Below, one piece after another: positions 30,237-38,549 of a stretch of DNA of 64,000 nt. Origin of the DNA: a virus. The position numbers and the translations under genes are program-made. Position 1 is the stretch's first letter. Every line of letters starts with the position of its first letter. The DNA is taken from positions 1-64,000 of IMG/VR virus record IMGVR_UViG_3300021962_005968, one strand, 5' to 3'. The notes under the pieces were generated by a model, which saw nothing but the letters and a program-made list of their open reading frames with translations, did no database searches and had not been told where the DNA came from.

Positions 30237-31156
30237 CACATAACTTCTTTCAATTAAATGAACTAATAGGTGATTTGCTTAAAGCAAATGAACCGTTTTC
30301 GTTATTGCGTATTGATAATACAATGGGATACGTATTAGATTCTTTGCAGAAAAATACTACTCCTGTTAGAGAATTTTTCAATGAGAATGCTTTAATTGAG
30401 GGTGGCATATATCCTAATAATATGGATTATGCATATGATGTTGTTATACCAAAAACATTAGAAGCAATGACCTATTGCGATATTCTTGGGTTTGTTGACC
30501 TATCAGGTGAAATACAACGTAATACAGAATTTATTAATTTATTTGGTGAGAAGCCTAAGTTCTATGGGCATGATAGTATATTAGTTCTTGATCCATGTGC
30601 ATTGTTAAATGTGGATGGTATTCATGAATTAGAGAATCCTTGGCCTACATATTTGAGGGGTAAAAAGGTATTAGTTGTTTCTACCCATGCGGAAACAATT
30701 AAACATCAATGGAAAAACATAGATAGCATCTGGGGCTGGAATAAACACCGGGTTGTTCCTTTTGAATTGGTGGATGTTATTAAATCCCCATACCATCCTA
30801 TTATGGATCCTAATCAATATCCTGGATGTAATACGTGGGAAGATACTGTTGAATATATAAAAGCAAAGATTGATACATATGACTACGATGTATTAATTGC
30901 AGGATCATCAACGTCTTCTCCTATGTATGCAGAACATGCTAAACAACAAGGCAAAATAGGAATACAAACTGGCGGCGTGCATCAGTTGTTCTTTGGTATT
31001 CTAGGATATCGTTGGTCACCTGAAGCAAACAACGGTTATAGACCTTGGGCAAAATTATACAATGAGCATTGGATGTATCCTATGCAAATAGATGAACCCA
31101 TGAACAGAGACAAATATAACTCTTTAGAAACTAACTACGCATACTGGAAAAAATGA
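30233..31156 (+). CDS. Putative GT-D-like glycosyltransferase / polysaccharide protein
   Basis: 307 residues. LLRIDNTMGYVLDS at 23-37 and, in the C-terminal half, VLIAGSSTSSPMYAEHAKQQGKIGIQTGGV with LFFGILGYRW resemble the DUF1792/GT-D layout (RxGDxE-like start, product-binding loop). The resemblance is weak. It is fully embedded in the sugar operon (ATGA overlaps at both ends). Confidence 0.45.
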   Translation: MTHNFFQLNELIGDLLKANEPFSLLRIDNTMGYVLDSLQKNTTPVREFFNENALIEGGIYPNNMDYAYDVVIPKTLEAMTYCDILGFVDLSGEIQRNTEFINLFGEKPKFYGHDSILVLDPCALLNVDGIHELENPWPTYLRGKKVLVVSTHAETIKHQWKNIDSIWGWNKHRVVPFELVDVIKSPYHPIMDPNQYPGCNTWEDTVEYIKAKIDTYDYDVLIAGSSTSSPMYAEHAKQQGKIGIQTGGVHQLFFGILGYRWSPEANNGYRPWAKLYNEHWMYPMQIDEPMNRDKYNSLETNYAYWKK

Positions 31157-32475
31157 ATAAACAAGATATTATTAAAAGTGTTGCTGAATTTATTCAAGAG
31201 AAAAACAGCAAAAAGACTTGGGTTGCAGGCAAAGACTTCGTTAACTATGCAGGCCCATATTTTGATGAACACGAAATTACGGCGGCAGTCTCTACATTGT
31301 TAGATAGCTGGCTTGTAATGGGTGATCAATCAATAAAATTTGAGAAACAATTTCCTAAGCAATTTCAAAAGAACTTTGGAATTCTTACTAATTCAGGATC
31401 AAGCTCTAATCTATTAATGATGTCTACGCTTACATCTAAGCGGGGATATAACTTGCCTAAAGGTACAAAGGTATTGATGCCTATTGCAGGCTTTCCCACA
31501 ACATTAAATCCTACATTGCAAGTAGGGTTTGAGCCTGTATTTTTAGATATCGAATTAGACACACTTAATTTAGATTTAACTAGAGCAGAAGAATTAATTA
31601 AGAAACATGATATTAAAGTTATTACATTTGCTCACGTGTTAGGCAATCCCCCTAATATGCGTTGGGTAATGGAATTAGTTAATCGGTATGATTTGATTTT
31701 ATTAGAAGATTGTTGCGATGCGTTAGGTTCCACATATGGTGGTCAACCACTAGGATCATTTGGTGAAATGGCATCTTGCTCATTCTATCCTGCGCATCAT
31801 ATGACAATGGGCGAAGGCGGGTTTGTAGCATGTAAGTCGTATGAGACAGAAGTTATCCTTCGTTCATTTAGAGAATGGGGACGCGGTTGTTATTGCGTAG
31901 GACCCGAAGCTAATAAATTAAAATGTGGTTCCTGCGGCAAGAGATTTCAAGAATGGATTCCTGAAATGCCAGGAGAAATTTTTGACCATAAATATGTATA
32001 TGATGAAATTGGTTATAACCTTAAACCCATCGAATTGCAAGGCGCAATGGGTATGGTACAATTAGAAAAATTGGAGACTATTCATGCCCTACGTCGTCGT
32101 AATTATAGTTTGCTTTTTGATATCTACAGCAAGTACGAGGAGTACTTCCATTTACCTAGAGCACAAGAATACTCAGACCCAAGCTGGTTCGCGTTCCCCT
32201 TAACAATTCGTGCAGGGTCTCCGTTTAAGAGAAGCGACATTGTAGACTATCTCGAGGATAAATTAATTCAGACAAGACCTTATTTTGCTGGCAATATTAT
32301 GTTACAGCCTGCATATTCACATTTGATGAATCCCGCAGAAGCACGAGATAATTTCCCTGTTGCTACAATGACAATGACTAATACTTATTTCCATGGTACA
32401 AGTCCTGTTATTACTCCTGAGCAAATTAAATATATCGGCGAAATAGTAGATAGTTTTATGAGTCTGTTTAGATAG
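31153..32475 (+). CDS. rfbH: RfbH/E1-like CDP-4-keto-6-deoxyglucose 3-dehydrase
   Basis: 440 residues. The Lys-to-His exchange is in FYPAHHMTMGEGG (His215). A Cys set (CYC... and CGSCGKRF around 255-277) corresponds to the iron-sulfur ligands of the E1-type enzymes that remove O3 of CDP-4-keto-6-deoxyglucose together with an E3 reductase. KYVYDEIGYNLKPIELQGAMG is also E1-like. No E3 reductase or CDP-glucose 4,6-dehydratase is obvious, so host enzymes or another NDP-sugar are needed. Confidence 0.85.
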   Translation: MNKQDIIKSVAEFIQEKNSKKTWVAGKDFVNYAGPYFDEHEITAAVSTLLDSWLVMGDQSIKFEKQFPKQFQKNFGILTNSGSSSNLLMMSTLTSKRGYNLPKGTKVLMPIAGFPTTLNPTLQVGFEPVFLDIELDTLNLDLTRAEELIKKHDIKVITFAHVLGNPPNMRWVMELVNRYDLILLEDCCDALGSTYGGQPLGSFGEMASCSFYPAHHMTMGEGGFVACKSYETEVILRSFREWGRGCYCVGPEANKLKCGSCGKRFQEWIPEMPGEIFDHKYVYDEIGYNLKPIELQGAMGMVQLEKLETIHALRRRNYSLLFDIYSKYEEYFHLPRAQEYSDPSWFAFPLTIRAGSPFKRSDIVDYLEDKLIQTRPYFAGNIMLQPAYSHLMNPAEARDNFPVATMTMTNTYFHGTSPVITPEQIKYIGEIVDSFMSLFR

Positions 32476-32540: not shown

Positions 32541-33350
32541 ATGAACTTAAAAGAACGACAAATGCTAGATATACTCAAAAAGGGTAAAAATGAATTTGGT
32601 TATGTTGCAGTTAAAGCTGAATTTGAAGCAGAAGGTACTAGAGTAGATGAGCTATTACGTTTAATAGAATTGGCTCGTCGAGCAAATCTTAAAATTGCAC
32701 TTAAGGTTGGCGGTTGTGAGGCTATGACGGATCTAATGATAGCTAAGCAAATCGGGGTTGATTATGTAATTGGGCCTATGATTGAGACTCCATATGCTTT
32801 ATGGAAATTTATTGATGCAAAAAATAAAGTCTTTAACAAGGAAGAACAGGAAAGCACAGAATTCTTATATAACTTAGAAACACACACCGGTTATATCAAT
32901 CGTGAAGGTATGAGCAAGCAGGCCACGGTCGAGGGGGGTGTTAACGGGGTAGTGTTTGGTCGCGTAGATTTTAGCATGAGCCGCCGAGAAGAAGGCTGGG
33001 ACCGTGATGATATTAATCTGCCTAAGGTCACTGAATGTGTTTTAGACGTAGCACAGATTGCCAAGGATGCAGGTCAAGCTATTGTTGTGGGTGGCGGCAT
33101 AAGTTCAGATAGTATTGATGTGCTGAAACAAATTCGGCAAATACATCTAACACGCTTTGAGACCCGTAAGATTGTGTTTGATGGATCTGCTACTGAAGTC
33201 ACTGATCTTGCACAGGGATTAGTAAACGGTATTCACTTTGAACTTCTGTGGTTGCAAAACAAACGCGATTACTATGGCTCAATCTTTACTGAGGATGACA
33301 AGCGTATCAAGATGTTAGATGACCGTTGGAAAATTTTGGCCGCACAATGA
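32541..33350 (+). CDS. HpcH/HpaI-type aldolase/lyase
   Basis: 269 residues. TIM-barrel signs: LKIALKVGGCEAMTD, GVDYVIGPMIETPYALWKF, FGRVDFSMSRREEGW, and IVVGGGISSDS. The family adds or removes pyruvate-type or acetyl units. AAGGAAA ribosome site. Coupled by four bases to an SDR, then a dehydroquinate-synthase-like gene and a ThDP enzyme, which suggests one pathway. Product not known. Confidence 0.7.
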   Translation: MNLKERQMLDILKKGKNEFGYVAVKAEFEAEGTRVDELLRLIELARRANLKIALKVGGCEAMTDLMIAKQIGVDYVIGPMIETPYALWKFIDAKNKVFNKEEQESTEFLYNLETHTGYINREGMSKQATVEGGVNGVVFGRVDFSMSRREEGWDRDDINLPKVTECVLDVAQIAKDAGQAIVVGGGISSDSIDVLKQIRQIHLTRFETRKIVFDGSATEVTDLAQGLVNGIHFELLWLQNKRDYYGSIFTEDDKRIKMLDDRWKILAAQ

Positions 33351-34039
33351 AAGTTCTTGTAACTGGCGCTACTCGGGGAATAGGTAAAAGTATTGCAAGT
33401 TTATTCCACCTCCAGGGACATAAAGTTATTGGTACGGGTACACCGGGTACTGCTAAACCCGATTATTTAGATTATTATTTTGAGGCAAATTTTACTAAAA
33501 AGGATCAAGTAGAGTCGTTAGCAAGTATAATTAACGATTTGCAAATTGATGCGTTAGTTAATAATGCAGGTATTAATCGTATTAAACCTTTTCTTGAAAT
33601 TACGCCCGACGATTGGAACGATCAACATATGGTTAATGTATATGCGCCATATAGATTCTGCCAAGCAGCATTACCTCATATGATTGAAAATGGGGGACAT
33701 ATTGTAAATATTGCTAGCGTATGGAGTAAAATAAGTAAATCGGGAAGAGCGGCATATAGTGCAAATAAATTTGCATTAGAGGGCATGACCAAATCCTTAG
33801 CTGCAGAATTTAGTTCTCATAATATACGTATTAACTGCGTTAGTCCAGGTTTTATAGATACTGATCTTACGAGAAAAAATTTGGGAGAGGCAGGCATTAA
33901 AAAAATACTAGAGAGAGTTCCTATTAATAGGTTAGGACATACTGCTGATATTTCGGAATATGTATATTGGCTGTGTACTCAAAATAGTTATATCACTGGG
34001 CAAAATATTGTAATTGACGGGGGATTTACCTGTGCTTGA
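33347..34039 (+). CDS. Short-chain dehydrogenase/reductase
   Basis: 230 residues from ATG 33347. TGATRGIGKS (NAD(P)), NNAG, catalytic Ser region VNIASVWSK and YSANK (YxxxK), then PGFIDTDL: a complete classical FabG-like SDR. Probably reduces a keto intermediate of the surrounding pathway. Confidence 0.88.
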   Translation: MKVLVTGATRGIGKSIASLFHLQGHKVIGTGTPGTAKPDYLDYYFEANFTKKDQVESLASIINDLQIDALVNNAGINRIKPFLEITPDDWNDQHMVNVYAPYRFCQAALPHMIENGGHIVNIASVWSKISKSGRAAYSANKFALEGMTKSLAAEFSSHNIRINCVSPGFIDTDLTRKNLGEAGIKKILERVPINRLGHTADISEYVYWLCTQNSYITGQNIVIDGGFTCA

Positions 34040-35039
34040 TTTTGAAGTAAAAAGTAAATTTGGTAATTATAACGTAGAATTTTGTAGTATAAATACTATC
34101 AATATTGCTAAAATTGGCACTCACTTTATTATTGACAAAACTGTAGTAGACTATTATAATATAAACTTTAATAATGCTATTATTATTAATGCAAACGAAT
34201 CCGAAAAAAGCTATCAGGCGGCGGATAGTATTATAGATAATTTGGTTAAAATGAATATGCGAAGAGATAGTCATTTGATTGCAATAGGTGGGGGTATTAC
34301 CCAGGATATAACTTGTTGGATTGCCTCAACTTTTATGAGAGGGATACCCTGGAGTTTTGTCCCAACTACTTTACTTGCGCAAACGGATAGTTGTATTGGT
34401 AGTAAAAGTTCAATTAATTTTAATCAATATAAAAATCTGTTAGGTACATTTAATCCTCCAAGAAATGTTTACATTGATAATAAGTTTCGTAATACATTGG
34501 AAAATCGAGATATAAAAAGCGGATTGTCGGAATTAATTAAACTTATGATAATTAATAATTGCGATAAAAAAGAAATTTTTAAAGTAGCATCCTCTAGACC
34601 AGTTACAGATGAGCATATAGCTAAAGCATTACTCATCAAAAAATATTTTATTGAGACAGATGAATTTGATAAAGGTATTCGTAATTTATTAAATTACGGA
34701 CATTGTTTTGGGCATGCAATAGAAAGTGCTAGTAACTATGATATACCGCACGGCATAGCTGTTGCAATGGGAATGGATTTAGCAAATGCATTAACTAATA
34801 AAGAGTGGTATGATAAATACCATAACATCTTATATATTCTATATGCAGAATTTTTAGATATTTTAAATAATATAGAATTAGATAAAGTATTTGAAGCTAT
34901 GAATAAAGACAAAAAGAATATTGGTGGTAAATTAAGTATTATTGCCCCAACTAATTTTGGTTTAGAAAAACAACAATTTATAAATGATTTTAAGTTTAGA
35001 ACGAAATGCATTGATATATTTAAAATGCTAAAGGATTAA
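34032..35039 (+). CDS. 3-dehydroquinate-synthase-like sugar phosphate cyclase
   Basis: 335 residues from GTG 34032, which has a strong GGGGGA site; a TTG at 34014 is less likely. IAIGGGITQD, VPTTLLAQTDSCIGSK, GLSELIKLM with E167, LNYGHCFGHAIE with H224 and IPHG with H240 reproduce the DHQ synthase metal ligands with the same 16-residue His spacing as in AroB. The glycine-rich 'GGK' step reads GSK. No shikimate genes are near, so a cyclitol or other cyclisation product (valiolone-, aminoDHQ-type) is plausible. Confidence 0.8.
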   Translation: MLDFEVKSKFGNYNVEFCSINTINIAKIGTHFIIDKTVVDYYNINFNNAIIINANESEKSYQAADSIIDNLVKMNMRRDSHLIAIGGGITQDITCWIASTFMRGIPWSFVPTTLLAQTDSCIGSKSSINFNQYKNLLGTFNPPRNVYIDNKFRNTLENRDIKSGLSELIKLMIINNCDKKEIFKVASSRPVTDEHIAKALLIKKYFIETDEFDKGIRNLLNYGHCFGHAIESASNYDIPHGIAVAMGMDLANALTNKEWYDKYHNILYILYAEFLDILNNIELDKVFEAMNKDKKNIGGKLSIIAPTNFGLEKQQFINDFKFRTKCIDIFKMLKD

Positions 35040-35041
35040 AA

Positions 35042-36820
35042 ATGCGAGTATGTGATTATATTGCTAAAAAGTTAAATGATATAGGTGTAACTAAAGTATA
35101 TGGGTTAGTTGGCGGAAGTACTGCCGGTCTAAATGATGGATTTATCAGCAATCCACATATTGACTACATTGCATTTCACCACGAACAAGGTGCAGGCCAT
35201 GCTGCAGTAGGATCTGCGAGAACTAATAAGCAACTTAGTGTTTGTAATGTTACTGCAGGCTGCGGTGTAACTAATGCAATGACTAGTTTGTTAAATGCTT
35301 ATGAGGAAAGTGCTCCTGTATTATTCTTAAGTGGAAATACCGGCATGTCTAATCAGGCAAAGTACATTAATAAGGAAAAAGGAATACATCTTCGTAAATA
35401 TGGTATTCAAGATCTCGATGCTATTAAAACGGTTGAGGGAATTTGTAAATATTCTATAGCTATAGAAAATGCTAAAGATATACCATATGAATTAACCAAA
35501 GCCATACATATTGCACAAGACGGGCGCCCAGGACCAGTGTGGATTGATGTTCCGGGAAATATACAGACTGCGCAAATTCCAGAAGGTTGCGAAGAATACG
35601 TTGAGGATAAAATAGACCACGCATCCAAACACATCGATGGCGCGCTGGATGCTTTACAAGTTTTATTTAAATCTGAACGCCCTGTTATTGTGGCAGGCAA
35701 TGGAATTGCCCTGGGCAATGCTAGAGAATTGTTTAGAAATATTGTTGACAAATATAATATTCCTTTTGTTACGACATTTCTTTCTAGGGATTTAATTGAA
35801 TATGAACATGATCAGAATTTAGGAATGATGGGCATCAAAGGTGCACGCTCTGCAAATTTTGCATTACAAAATGCAGACTGTTTGCTTATTTTAGGTTGTT
35901 CAATGAACGTAACACATATAGGGTATGATTCAAAAACCTTTAGTCCGTATAGTACAAAAATCATGGTTGATATTGATCCTAGTGAACTTAAAAAAGATAT
36001 CTTTAAAGTTGATAACGCAATTAACTGTAACGTATACGATTTTCTATATACAATGCAACTTAACCCGAGCGATTATAAATTAAACACTTGGACCAATAAA
36101 TGTTTGTATTGGAAAAATAAATGGCCACTATATCAACCAGAAGTTCATCGTCCAGATATAGGGGGATTAAATCTATATGAAATTGTAGAAAGTATTAATC
36201 GTAACATGGAACCGAAGGATTGTTTTGTTGTAGACGCAGGGCAACCATGTTATATACTTTCTACTAACGGTAAGTATAAAAAAGACTGCCGTTATATGGC
36301 TCAATCTGCCCAGGGTGATATGGGGTATGCTTTGCCCGCGAGTGTCGGGGTTCACTTTGCGGATCCTAGTCTAAATATTGTTTTAGTTATTGGAGAAGGT
36401 AGTTTTTATACTAATATGCAGGAACTTGCTGTAATCAGACAACATAATATTCCTATTAAGATTTTTGTTATTAATAACGATGGTTATATGAGTATTAAAC
36501 AAACACAAAATAAAATGTTCGGCGGACGTCAATGGGGAGTTAGTAATTCAACCGGCGTATATTTTGCAGATATTTCTAAGATTGCAGATGCATTTGAAAT
36601 TCCTTATTTTAAAATAACTAATAATCAAAGTTTAGACACATACATGTCGAGTGTTATGCGCGGAAATAATCCTGTTATTGTTGAGTTTATGAGTCAGCAC
36701 GAACTAGACGTACAGCCAGCACAGGCAATGAAACCAAATGGGAAACAGGGTGGTCTACATGAAATGAGTCCTTTCTTAAGTCAGGAAGAGCTTGACGCAG
36801 AGATGATTGTTAAGATATGA
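35042..36820 (+). CDS. ThDP-dependent enzyme (acetolactate-synthase-like)
   Basis: 592 residues with the three ThDP domains: catalytic HHEQGAGHAA (E48), central domain with SERPVIVAGNGIALGNA, and the C-terminal cofactor site GEGS (451-454) ... INNDGY. GEG replaces the usual GDG, so the metal ligand is Glu. C-C bond making enzymes of this type create branched-chain sugars (YerE-like) or cyclic products. Overlaps the next gene by four bases. Confidence 0.85.
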   Translation: MRVCDYIAKKLNDIGVTKVYGLVGGSTAGLNDGFISNPHIDYIAFHHEQGAGHAAVGSARTNKQLSVCNVTAGCGVTNAMTSLLNAYEESAPVLFLSGNTGMSNQAKYINKEKGIHLRKYGIQDLDAIKTVEGICKYSIAIENAKDIPYELTKAIHIAQDGRPGPVWIDVPGNIQTAQIPEGCEEYVEDKIDHASKHIDGALDALQVLFKSERPVIVAGNGIALGNARELFRNIVDKYNIPFVTTFLSRDLIEYEHDQNLGMMGIKGARSANFALQNADCLLILGCSMNVTHIGYDSKTFSPYSTKIMVDIDPSELKKDIFKVDNAINCNVYDFLYTMQLNPSDYKLNTWTNKCLYWKNKWPLYQPEVHRPDIGGLNLYEIVESINRNMEPKDCFVVDAGQPCYILSTNGKYKKDCRYMAQSAQGDMGYALPASVGVHFADPSLNIVLVIGEGSFYTNMQELAVIRQHNIPIKIFVINNDGYMSIKQTQNKMFGGRQWGVSNSTGVYFADISKIADAFEIPYFKITNNQSLDTYMSSVMRGNNPVIVEFMSQHELDVQPAQAMKPNGKQGGLHEMSPFLSQEELDAEMIVKI

Positions 36821-37605
36821 GAATAGCCGTTTTAGGTGCAAAGGGTTTTGTTGGGCGAAACCTTGCGAGACATTTAATAAGCAATCACCATGTGACTCCT
36901 GTAACCAGGGACATATTAGATATGCTTAATCCTAATGCGGTTACAATGTTTTTAAAAGAAGGACACTTTGATGTAGTTATCAATTGTGCGGCAATTATGA
37001 CTAATGACGAGTTATTAAATGATGCTAGAAATAACCTAAGTATCTTTATGAACTTCTATAATAATAGAGAATTATTTGGTAAATTTATTAATACTGCGTC
37101 GGGCGCGGAGTTTGATAGGTCCACAAATATTGATTGTGCAATAGAATCGGATATTTTTAATCATATGCCTAAAGACAGTTACGGTTGGGGGCAAAATATA
37201 AAAGCAAGATTGTCTGCAAAAACTGATAATTTTTATAATATTCGTATCTTTAATTGTTTTGGATATGGCGAATTAGAAACAAGATTGTTTTCACGATTTC
37301 TAAAACAAAGATATCTAGAAATTAGTAACGATAGATATTTTGATTATTTTAGTATAAATGATTTATGTAAAGTAGTTGATTATTATATAAAGCAAACATT
37401 GCCAATCAGTGATGTTAATGCTGTTTATGAAAATAAAATTAAAATTAGTGAGGCATTAGAACTGTTTTGCAAAGTTTGTAACATAGAACCAACCTTCAAA
37501 GTTATCAGTACTAGTTTTAATAACTACACTGGGAGTAGTTCGAGGTTAAAAACTTTGGGAATTGAACTGGATGGTTTAGAAAAAGGGTTTGAGGATTATA
37601 TATGA
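36817..37605 (+). CDS. Sugar-nucleotide reductase (RmlD-like extended SDR)
   Basis: 262 residues. NAD motif LGAKGFVGRNLARHL and NCAAIM. Where YxxxK is expected the sequence is SYGWGQNIKAR, so the active-site Lys is not at the standard spacing. It may be an inactive or redesigned reductase, or the Lys three residues later serves. Next gene overlaps by four bases. Confidence 0.65.
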   Translation: MRIAVLGAKGFVGRNLARHLISNHHVTPVTRDILDMLNPNAVTMFLKEGHFDVVINCAAIMTNDELLNDARNNLSIFMNFYNNRELFGKFINTASGAEFDRSTNIDCAIESDIFNHMPKDSYGWGQNIKARLSAKTDNFYNIRIFNCFGYGELETRLFSRFLKQRYLEISNDRYFDYFSINDLCKVVDYYIKQTLPISDVNAVYENKIKISEALELFCKVCNIEPTFKVISTSFNNYTGSSSRLKTLGIELDGLEKGFEDYI

Positions 37606-38549
37606 AAATACTTTATGTTACAGGGTGTTTAGGGTTTATAGGTTATCATGTAACTAAAAAATTCTTAGATAAAGGCCACTATGTTTATGGTATAGATAGT
37701 AAAACGTATGCTAGTAATAAAGACTTCCTTTATAAATTACTAGAATATAAAAATTTTACATTTGGCGGGTGCGATATAAACGATATCGACCGCTTGGTTG
37801 ACTGTGACTACTTTATTAATACTGCCGCAGAGACACATGTGGACAATAGTATTGTCAGCTCAGATGTTTTTCTGCGTAGCAACATCAACGGAGTTCATAA
37901 GATATTAGAACTCATCAAACAAAAACCAAAATCAAGAAGACCGACATTACTACACTTCAGTACCGATGAAGTGTATGGCGATATTGTAGATGGTTTTCAT
38001 ACTGAAACAGATTTACTAAAACCAAGCAATCCCTATTCGGCAACAAAAGCAGCAGCTGATATGTTGGTAAGTGCCTGGGCAAGAACATATGACGTTCCCT
38101 ATGTTATTGTTAGACCAACTAATAATTATGGTATAGGTCAATATGTTGAGAAGTTCATTCCTAAAGCAATAAAGAATTTGTCTTTAGGTCGACCTATTAT
38201 AATGCACGATAATGGGTCCCCGAAGAGAACTTGGTTGCACGTGTCCGATACAGCAAACGCAGTATTGACAATTATTGAATCAGGTGTTGTAAACGAGACC
38301 TATAATATTTCAGGCAACTATGAAGAACAAAATATTGTTGTTGCTAAGCATTTAATAGATTTGTTCTCCAATTATACTGTTACAACCTATCTGAAATATA
38401 TGGATTTTTCAGAGAAACGTATAGGTCAAGATGTTAGATATGCTATAGATGATTCGAAACTAAAAGCATTAGGATGGAAACCTGAAGCAGACTTTGGTAA
38501 AGAATTAATTGAGATTGTTAAGTATTATAAAGAAAATTTCATATGGTAA
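37602..38549 (+). CDS. dTDP-glucose 4,6-dehydratase-like (RmlB family)
   Basis: 315 residues. TGCLGFIGYHVTKKFL, FINTAAETHVDNSI, STDEVYGD with the DE pair of 4,6-dehydratases, and NPYSATKAAADML (YxxxK). RTWLHVSDTANAV also matches RmlB. Makes a 4-keto-6-deoxy sugar nucleotide; the substrate nucleotide cannot be read off. Shares the last bases with the next gene. Confidence 0.85.
   Translation: MKILYVTGCLGFIGYHVTKKFLDKGHYVYGIDSKTYASNKDFLYKLLEYKNFTFGGCDINDIDRLVDCDYFINTAAETHVDNSIVSSDVFLRSNINGVHKILELIKQKPKSRRPTLLHFSTDEVYGDIVDGFHTETDLLKPSNPYSATKAAADMLVSAWARTYDVPYVIVRPTNNYGIGQYVEKFIPKAIKNLSLGRPIIMHDNGSPKRTWLHVSDTANAVLTIIESGVVNETYNISGNYEEQNIVVAKHLIDLFSNYTVTTYLKYMDFSEKRIGQDVRYAIDDSKLKALGWKPEADFGKELIEIVKYYKENFIW

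Follow-up and report, generated by a model that had tools for sequence, protein, structure and literature searches.

A run of seven genes in a 64,000-base stretch of viral DNA (the window, taken from the 64,490-base IMG/VR record IMGVR_UViG_3300021962_005968, which may be a fragment) reads best, with a probability of about 50%, as a phage-borne branched-sugar cassette of the yersiniose/erwiniose kind to which a ring-forming module has been added. The genes encode an RfbH-type dehydrase, an aldolase-like protein, a short-chain dehydrogenase/reductase (SDR), a cyclase related to dehydroquinate synthase (DHQS), a thiamine diphosphate (ThDP) enzyme, a reductase-like protein and a 4,6-dehydratase. 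Their product is most likely an unusual branched sugar for a surface polysaccharide, probably with a small carbon ring within its branch. A first-pass annotation of the window had singled out the middle five genes as a block that could build a branched carbocyclic sugar, and this is still the best current reading. All five open reading frames are present, overlapping or nearly touching, and the block is kept together across genomes, but the conserved unit has seven members rather than five. The annotation had overlooked RfbH and the 4,6-dehydratase, the putative source of a ketone acceptor, as well as the kinship of the ThDP enzyme to YerE and JanthE and the copies of the unit in bacteria.

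By model score and diagnostic residues, the window RfbH is a true 3-dehydrase. It scored 436.6 bits with NF011936 (cut-off 423), and its best match in the PDB was 3bcx, a CDP-6-deoxy-4-hexulose-3-dehydrase (E 1e-94). His216 replaces the lysine that binds pyridoxal 5'-phosphate (PLP), Cys188, Cys246, Cys248 and Cys261 are present, and these residues are kept in the homologues that cover the positions. The 4,6-dehydratase reached 293 bits with TIGR01181 (cut-off 365) and has its catalytic TDE and YxxxK residues intact. Most other phages with the block have both genes alongside it. The bacterial neighbours include a glucose-1-phosphate cytidylyltransferase (464 bits, cut-off 300) and a CDP-glucose 4,6-dehydratase (485 bits, cut-off 278), and judged by this gene content the nucleotide in the bacterial relatives is probably CDP. 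RfbF was not found in the phage window, and the phage dehydratase is of the dTDP type. The gene context of a YerE-like enzyme, synthesis of a 4-keto-3,6-dideoxyhexose, is present as adjacent RfbH and 4,6-dehydratase genes in the phage and as RfbF or RfbG in bacteria.

The ThDP enzyme matched three ThDP Pfam domains strongly, and the DHQ synthase and SDR matches of its neighbours were likewise strong. The closest solved relative, over nearly the whole length, was JanthE (PDB 8rph, 310 bits); acetolactate synthase I gave 200 bits, and models of the acetolactate synthase large subunit gave up to 312 bits against a cut-off of 538. The HHEQ and NN motifs are kept, and GEG stands in place of GDG. 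This substitution, to which the first-pass annotation had drawn attention, is real, and it is no one-off but fixed in a single phage lineage: one group of aldolase phages, to which the relatives of the window belong, has GEG in every one of its 17 contigs, and GDG was found in eight other aldolase phages, in all phages with NeuB and in the bacterial copies read. JanthE, a YerE-like enzyme from Janthinobacterium, joins 2-keto acids to ketone acceptors, and it too has a non-standard ThDP motif, in its case CDG (PMC12188165, PMC12247030). YerE itself adds pyruvate-derived acetaldehyde to CDP-3,6-dideoxy-4-keto-D-glucose, ErwE carries out a similar addition with hydroxylated 2-keto acids, preferring 4-hydroxy-2-oxo acids, and MMAR_2332 has been tied to caryophyllose; all three belong to branched-sugar pathways that draw on 2-keto acids (PMC12247030). 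The yersiniose, erwiniose and caryophyllose pathways share with the window a YerE-like ThDP enzyme and a 4-keto-3,6-dideoxyhexose acceptor, here by way of RfbH, and the acids that ErwE prefers are the kind of product that pyruvate aldolases make. These pathways are bacterial, and no cyclase is described for them in the review (PMC12247030). The window cassette differs in being carried by a phage, in its additional DHQS-like cyclase and SDR, in its dTDP-type dehydratase and in its GEG motif.

The best NCBIfam model for the cyclase was TIGR04425 (369.7 bits, under the 400-bit cut-off), a hypothetical equivalog without assigned function that is described as an AroB-related putative sugar phosphate phospholyase, cyclizing. 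With the aroB model TIGR01357 the protein scored 244.2 bits and did not reach the cut-off of 305. Maximum-likelihood analysis placed the TIGR04425 proteins of phages and bacteria in a single clade (support 100/100, branch 1.36), separate from AroB, aminoDHQ synthase, DOIS and the sedoheptulose-7-phosphate cyclases. Twelve bacterial members fall in this clade, 11 of them above the TIGR04425 cut-off; they come from 4 of 398 Pseudomonadota and 8 of 296 Bacteroidota genomes sampled, and every carrier has a separate true AroB. The metal ligands E, H and H are complete, as had been noted at first, and the cyclase shares with AroB its fold and all 12 DHQS active-site residues compared. It is unlike AroB in its long-branch clade, in its link to sugar genes and in the true AroB that its carriers also own. 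The twelve residues are kept across the family except for K197, which is His in most cyclases (27 of 33) of a cassette type with a GmhA-like isomerase. The SDR adjoins the cyclase in all 12 of the first bacterial loci, and its S123, Y136 and K140 are invariant among 22 homologues.

The AlphaFold model of the aldolase (pLDDT 90.7) matched HpaI-type pyruvate aldolases (Foldseek E 4e-8, TM about 0.6). With the HpcH/HpaI class II pyruvate aldolases the protein has in common the TIM-barrel fold and two invariant residues, E113 and D143, which align with the Glu and Asp that serve as metal ligands in the HpaI family.

We searched gene neighbourhoods of 8–20 kb, with statistics that ignore shared ancestry. 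The aldolase profile gave 13 strong matches in bacteria. The region fetched for each match included a ThDP enzyme in 12 cases, and RfbF, RfbG or RfbH was nearby in 10, the other three being on short contigs or stretches of 8–13 kb. Cyclase and SDR were present together in eight of the 13 loci. A HAD phosphatase of one family was encoded in all five loci that lack the cyclase and in none of the eight that have it (Fisher p 0.0008, ancestry ignored). Among IMG/VR contigs, 137 encode relatives of the cyclase; 80 were kept, in all of which the cyclase model outscored AroB by a wide margin, and 25 contigs have aldolase, cyclase and ThDP enzyme together, a combination far from chance. Clustering of the cyclase relatives at 90% identity gave 66 clusters: 20 with aldolase and ThDP enzyme, 11 with NeuB and ThDP enzyme, 32 with the GmhA-like isomerase and no ThDP enzyme, one with isomerase and ThDP enzyme on a contig edge, and two others. 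NeuB-family enzymes make 3-deoxy-2-ulosonic acids from phosphoenolpyruvate. Exactly one of aldolase and NeuB was found in each of the 31 clusters of these two kinds that combine a ThDP enzyme with the cyclase. Of the 15 NeuB contigs, 11 encode a kinase-like protein after the cyclase, and none of the 25 aldolase contigs has it; this protein gave no Pfam or PDB sequence match and was placed in the FGGY sugar-kinase fold by predicted structure alone. The cassette types are scattered across the cyclase tree, with 15 label changes in a quick tree, so that the donor enzymes have probably been exchanged on more than one occasion. The two comparisons proposed in the first-pass annotation, of the cyclase with ordinary AroB and of the block across genomes, did not refute its reading, which is supported in part, with the cyclase in a separate clade and the unit conserved in other phages.

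While family membership, active-site conservation, conservation of the unit and the exchange patterns were computed, the reactions, their substrates and the order of coupling before cyclisation are what we infer from them. The 4,6-dehydratase and RfbH would first produce a nucleoside diphosphate (NDP)-4-keto-3,6-dideoxyhexose as acceptor. The aldolase is predicted to join pyruvate to an aldose phosphate, for which erythrose 4-phosphate is our guess, giving a phosphorylated 3-deoxy-2-ulosonate. The YerE/JanthE-type ThDP enzyme would then decarboxylate this 2-keto acid and couple the acyl chain to the keto sugar at C4, leaving a tertiary alcohol. By dehydroquinate-synthase chemistry (oxidation, phosphate elimination and aldol closure) the cyclase would convert the phosphorylated chain to a carbocycle, whose ring ketone is the predicted substrate of the SDR paired with the cyclase. 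The reductase-like protein, which accompanies the ThDP enzyme, would finish the nucleotide sugar for use by the flanking glycosyltransferases. Coupling is placed before cyclisation because ring closure on the free 2-keto acid would use up the keto group on which the ThDP enzyme depends. In their simplest reading, the swaps of aldolase for NeuB, usually with a kinase, and of cyclase for phosphatase suggest a phosphorylated 3-deoxy-ulosonate chain as the requirement of the cyclase. The product of the aldolase would already carry the phosphate and NeuB usually comes with a kinase; the phosphate would be lost on ring closure by the cyclase or, where the cyclase is absent, through hydrolysis by the phosphatase.

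Several observations weigh against this scheme. The E3-type reductase that partners RfbH (PF00175) was not found in the record, which is possibly a fragment; it might come from the host. The HpcH-type assignment of the first-pass annotation stands less firmly than that of the SDR: the window aldolase scored 19.3 bits with the Pfam family HpcH_HpaI, under the cut-off of 25, is about 15% identical to solved members, and gave poor structures in four of five models. Its relatives L133, L193 and L134 do exceed the cut-off, at 31–48 bits. The window reductase-like protein has Gln at the YxxxK lysine, the catalytic lysine having been lost in this lineage. The kinase is missing from 4 of 15 NeuB contigs, and the phage aldolase locus L134 has neither cyclase nor phosphatase. 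Finally, R264 and its partners, which in DHQS serve a carboxylate-bearing substrate, are kept in the cyclase. This suits cyclisation before decarboxylation and argues against coupling ahead of ring closure.

That last point bears on another order of events, in which the joint product of aldolase, cyclase and SDR is a free acid resembling dehydroquinate or quinate, formed from a DAHP-like (3-deoxy-D-arabino-heptulosonate 7-phosphate-like) sugar acid and attached to a sugar or glycan later, and the ThDP enzyme builds a separate, pyruvate-derived branch of the yersiniose kind. We consider this order less likely, even though the cyclase keeps all the DHQS residues, including those absent from cyclases that act on non-carboxylate substrates, and though the modules are separable, as cassettes of ThDP enzyme and RfbH that lack aldolase, SDR and cyclase (L040, L089, L091) demonstrate. 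The aldolase stays with the ThDP enzyme even where a phosphatase replaces the cyclase, and no common acid-activating ligase or transferase was recognised beside the cyclase in the cassettes.

An EEVS-like route, in which the cyclase makes a valiolone-type C7 cyclitol from sedoheptulose 7-phosphate for the other enzymes to decorate, had been entertained in the first-pass annotation and now looks very improbable. The protein is a sugar phosphate cyclase with intact metal ligands, and related isomerase-type cassettes encode a protein resembling GmhA, the sedoheptulose-7-phosphate isomerase. However, the cyclase falls outside the clade of sedoheptulose-7-phosphate cyclases and keeps K250, R264, N268, H275 and K356 (A. 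nidulans numbering), all of which are changed in the three such cyclases compared, and the alternation of aldolase and NeuB indicates a ulosonate. The one DOIS compared differs from DHQS at R264, N268 and K356, where the window cyclase has the DHQS residues, and on these active-site residues both identities were rejected. Because the DHQS residues are kept and the substitutions of the sedoheptulose-7-phosphate cyclases are absent, the sequence favours a substrate of the DAHP type over sedoheptulose 7-phosphate. The least probable reading of all, a spare AroB and a spare acetolactate synthase that boost host shikimate and branched-chain amino acid synthesis, was rejected since, for all their membership in these two superfamilies (up to 312 bits with the latter), both proteins score well under the equivalog cut-offs (244/305 and 312/538 bits), the cyclase clade is separate, the bacterial carriers each own an AroB, and the genes lie amid glycosyltransferases and sugar dehydratases. 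Bradyrhizose was considered as a further comparison, its genes having been placed in a cluster of 11 that includes a dTDP-glucose 4,6-dehydratase (PMC4743980), but we claim no link to it.

If the branched-sugar cassette is what we take it to be, a YerE-type branched-sugar pathway operates in phages; a 2025 review went no further than speculation on viral orthologues. We propose tentatively, and with less than even confidence, that phages make an undescribed class of nucleotide sugars by YerE-type coupling of a phosphorylated ulosonic acid to C4 of a 3,6-dideoxy-4-ketohexose, followed by ring closure of the branch on the nucleotide sugar by a DHQS relative, and that swapping of donor modules between lineages (aldolase, or NeuB plus kinase) diversifies surface-glycan chemistry. 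The model supplies a testable reaction for the function-less TIGR04425 family and predicts a type of sugar with a carbocyclic branch. Related cyclases are encoded in upwards of 100 viral contigs, so that the remodelling of surface glycans by phages may involve uncharacterised chemistry. The statement in the first-pass annotation that it knew of no described phage pathway of this kind agrees with our searches: 50,697 public phage records yielded no close relative of either the cyclase or the ThDP enzyme, and the literature search returned no paper on a phage DHQ synthase or phage cyclase. Matches obtained with tblastn in the phage collection were set aside, as they resemble ordinary AroB or acetolactate synthase and many lie in unannotated fragments or bacterial records. 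A single scan of genome contigs, made with one protein, gave only two loci, at 209 and 258 bits, far below the TIGR04425 cut-off.

Misassigned bacterial DNA can occur among IMG/VR contigs, but the window itself is phage. It encodes a T4-like major head protein, scaffold, DNA polymerase and helicases, and on the strength of 66% identity between its major head protein and that of the Methylophilales phage Melnitz we would guess that the host is a methylotroph. Sugar genes and glycosyltransferase-like genes form a long run at about 24–42 kb that contains the unit (Table 1). Aldolase and SDR have a common ATGA, provided that the SDR starts at the ATG at 33347, which is likelier than the TTG at 33326. 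The SDR and cyclase reading frames overlap, with GTG 34032 as an alternative start for the cyclase; a gap of 2 nt separates cyclase and ThDP enzyme, and the last two junctions are overlaps of 4 nt each. A promoter scan gave no enrichment relative to shuffled sequence.

Table 1. The seven genes of the unit, with their positions in the window and the basis of each assignment
Feature	Position	Strand	Basis
RfbH-type PLP 3-dehydrase (E1)	31153..32475	+	NF011936 436.6 bits, PDB 3bcx, residues
HpaI-fold aldolase-like protein	32541..33350	+	weak Pfam match, AF2 fold, invariant E113/D143
SDR (classical short-chain dehydrogenase)	33347..34039	+	adh_short_C2 178 bits, S123/Y136/K140
DHQ-synthase-like cyclase, TIGR04425 clade	34014..35039	+	tree, 12/12 DHQS residues
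YerE/JanthE-like ThDP enzyme, GEG for GDG	35042..36820	+	best PDB match 8rph
Extended-SDR reductase/epimerase-like protein	36817..37605	+	Epimerase 45.6 bits, RmlD 42 bits
4,6-dehydratase-like protein, dTDP-glucose type	37602..38549	+	TIGR01181 293 bits, below equivalog cut-off

The five genes at 32541–37605 are 88–100% identical among four phage contigs (the window and L002–L004), and several flanking glycosyltransferase-like genes are 58–77% identical among the same contigs; a conserved core between divergent flanks suggests exchange around the core. In 16 of the 17 contigs with a GEG ThDP enzyme, counting the window (36817–37605) and 16 related contigs, the YxxxK lysine of the reductase-like protein is changed to Gln, Glu or Leu. 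The lysine is retained in those aldolase and NeuB phages whose ThDP enzyme reads GDG, and the GEG site and the lost lysine may be a joint change. Two phages have the YerE-like ThDP enzyme split into adjacent reading frames at about the same position (L040:8001-9786, 342 + 261 aa; L089:6245-8004, 337 + 249 aa), with RfbH, the reductase-like gene and the dehydratase present.

A second and commoner phage cassette combines cyclase and SDR with the GmhA-like isomerase (L152–L203, for example L160, L173 and L159). It often has a CMP-type cytidylyltransferase fused to a cupin, plus a class III or DegT aminotransferase, and looks like a pathway to an activated amino-carbocycle. A radical-SAM/SPASM enzyme, 65–70% identical between loci, occurs in three of the bacterial aldolase-phosphatase clusters (L110:7198-8364, L111:7341-8465 and L112:2663-3766). 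On a plasmid of Streptomyces sp. NBC_01456 (L083:2704-7584), a DHQS-family protein adjoins a ThDP enzyme, a BadF-type ATPase and an inositol monophosphatase; this cluster looks unrelated, yet it repeats the pairing of cyclase and ThDP enzyme.

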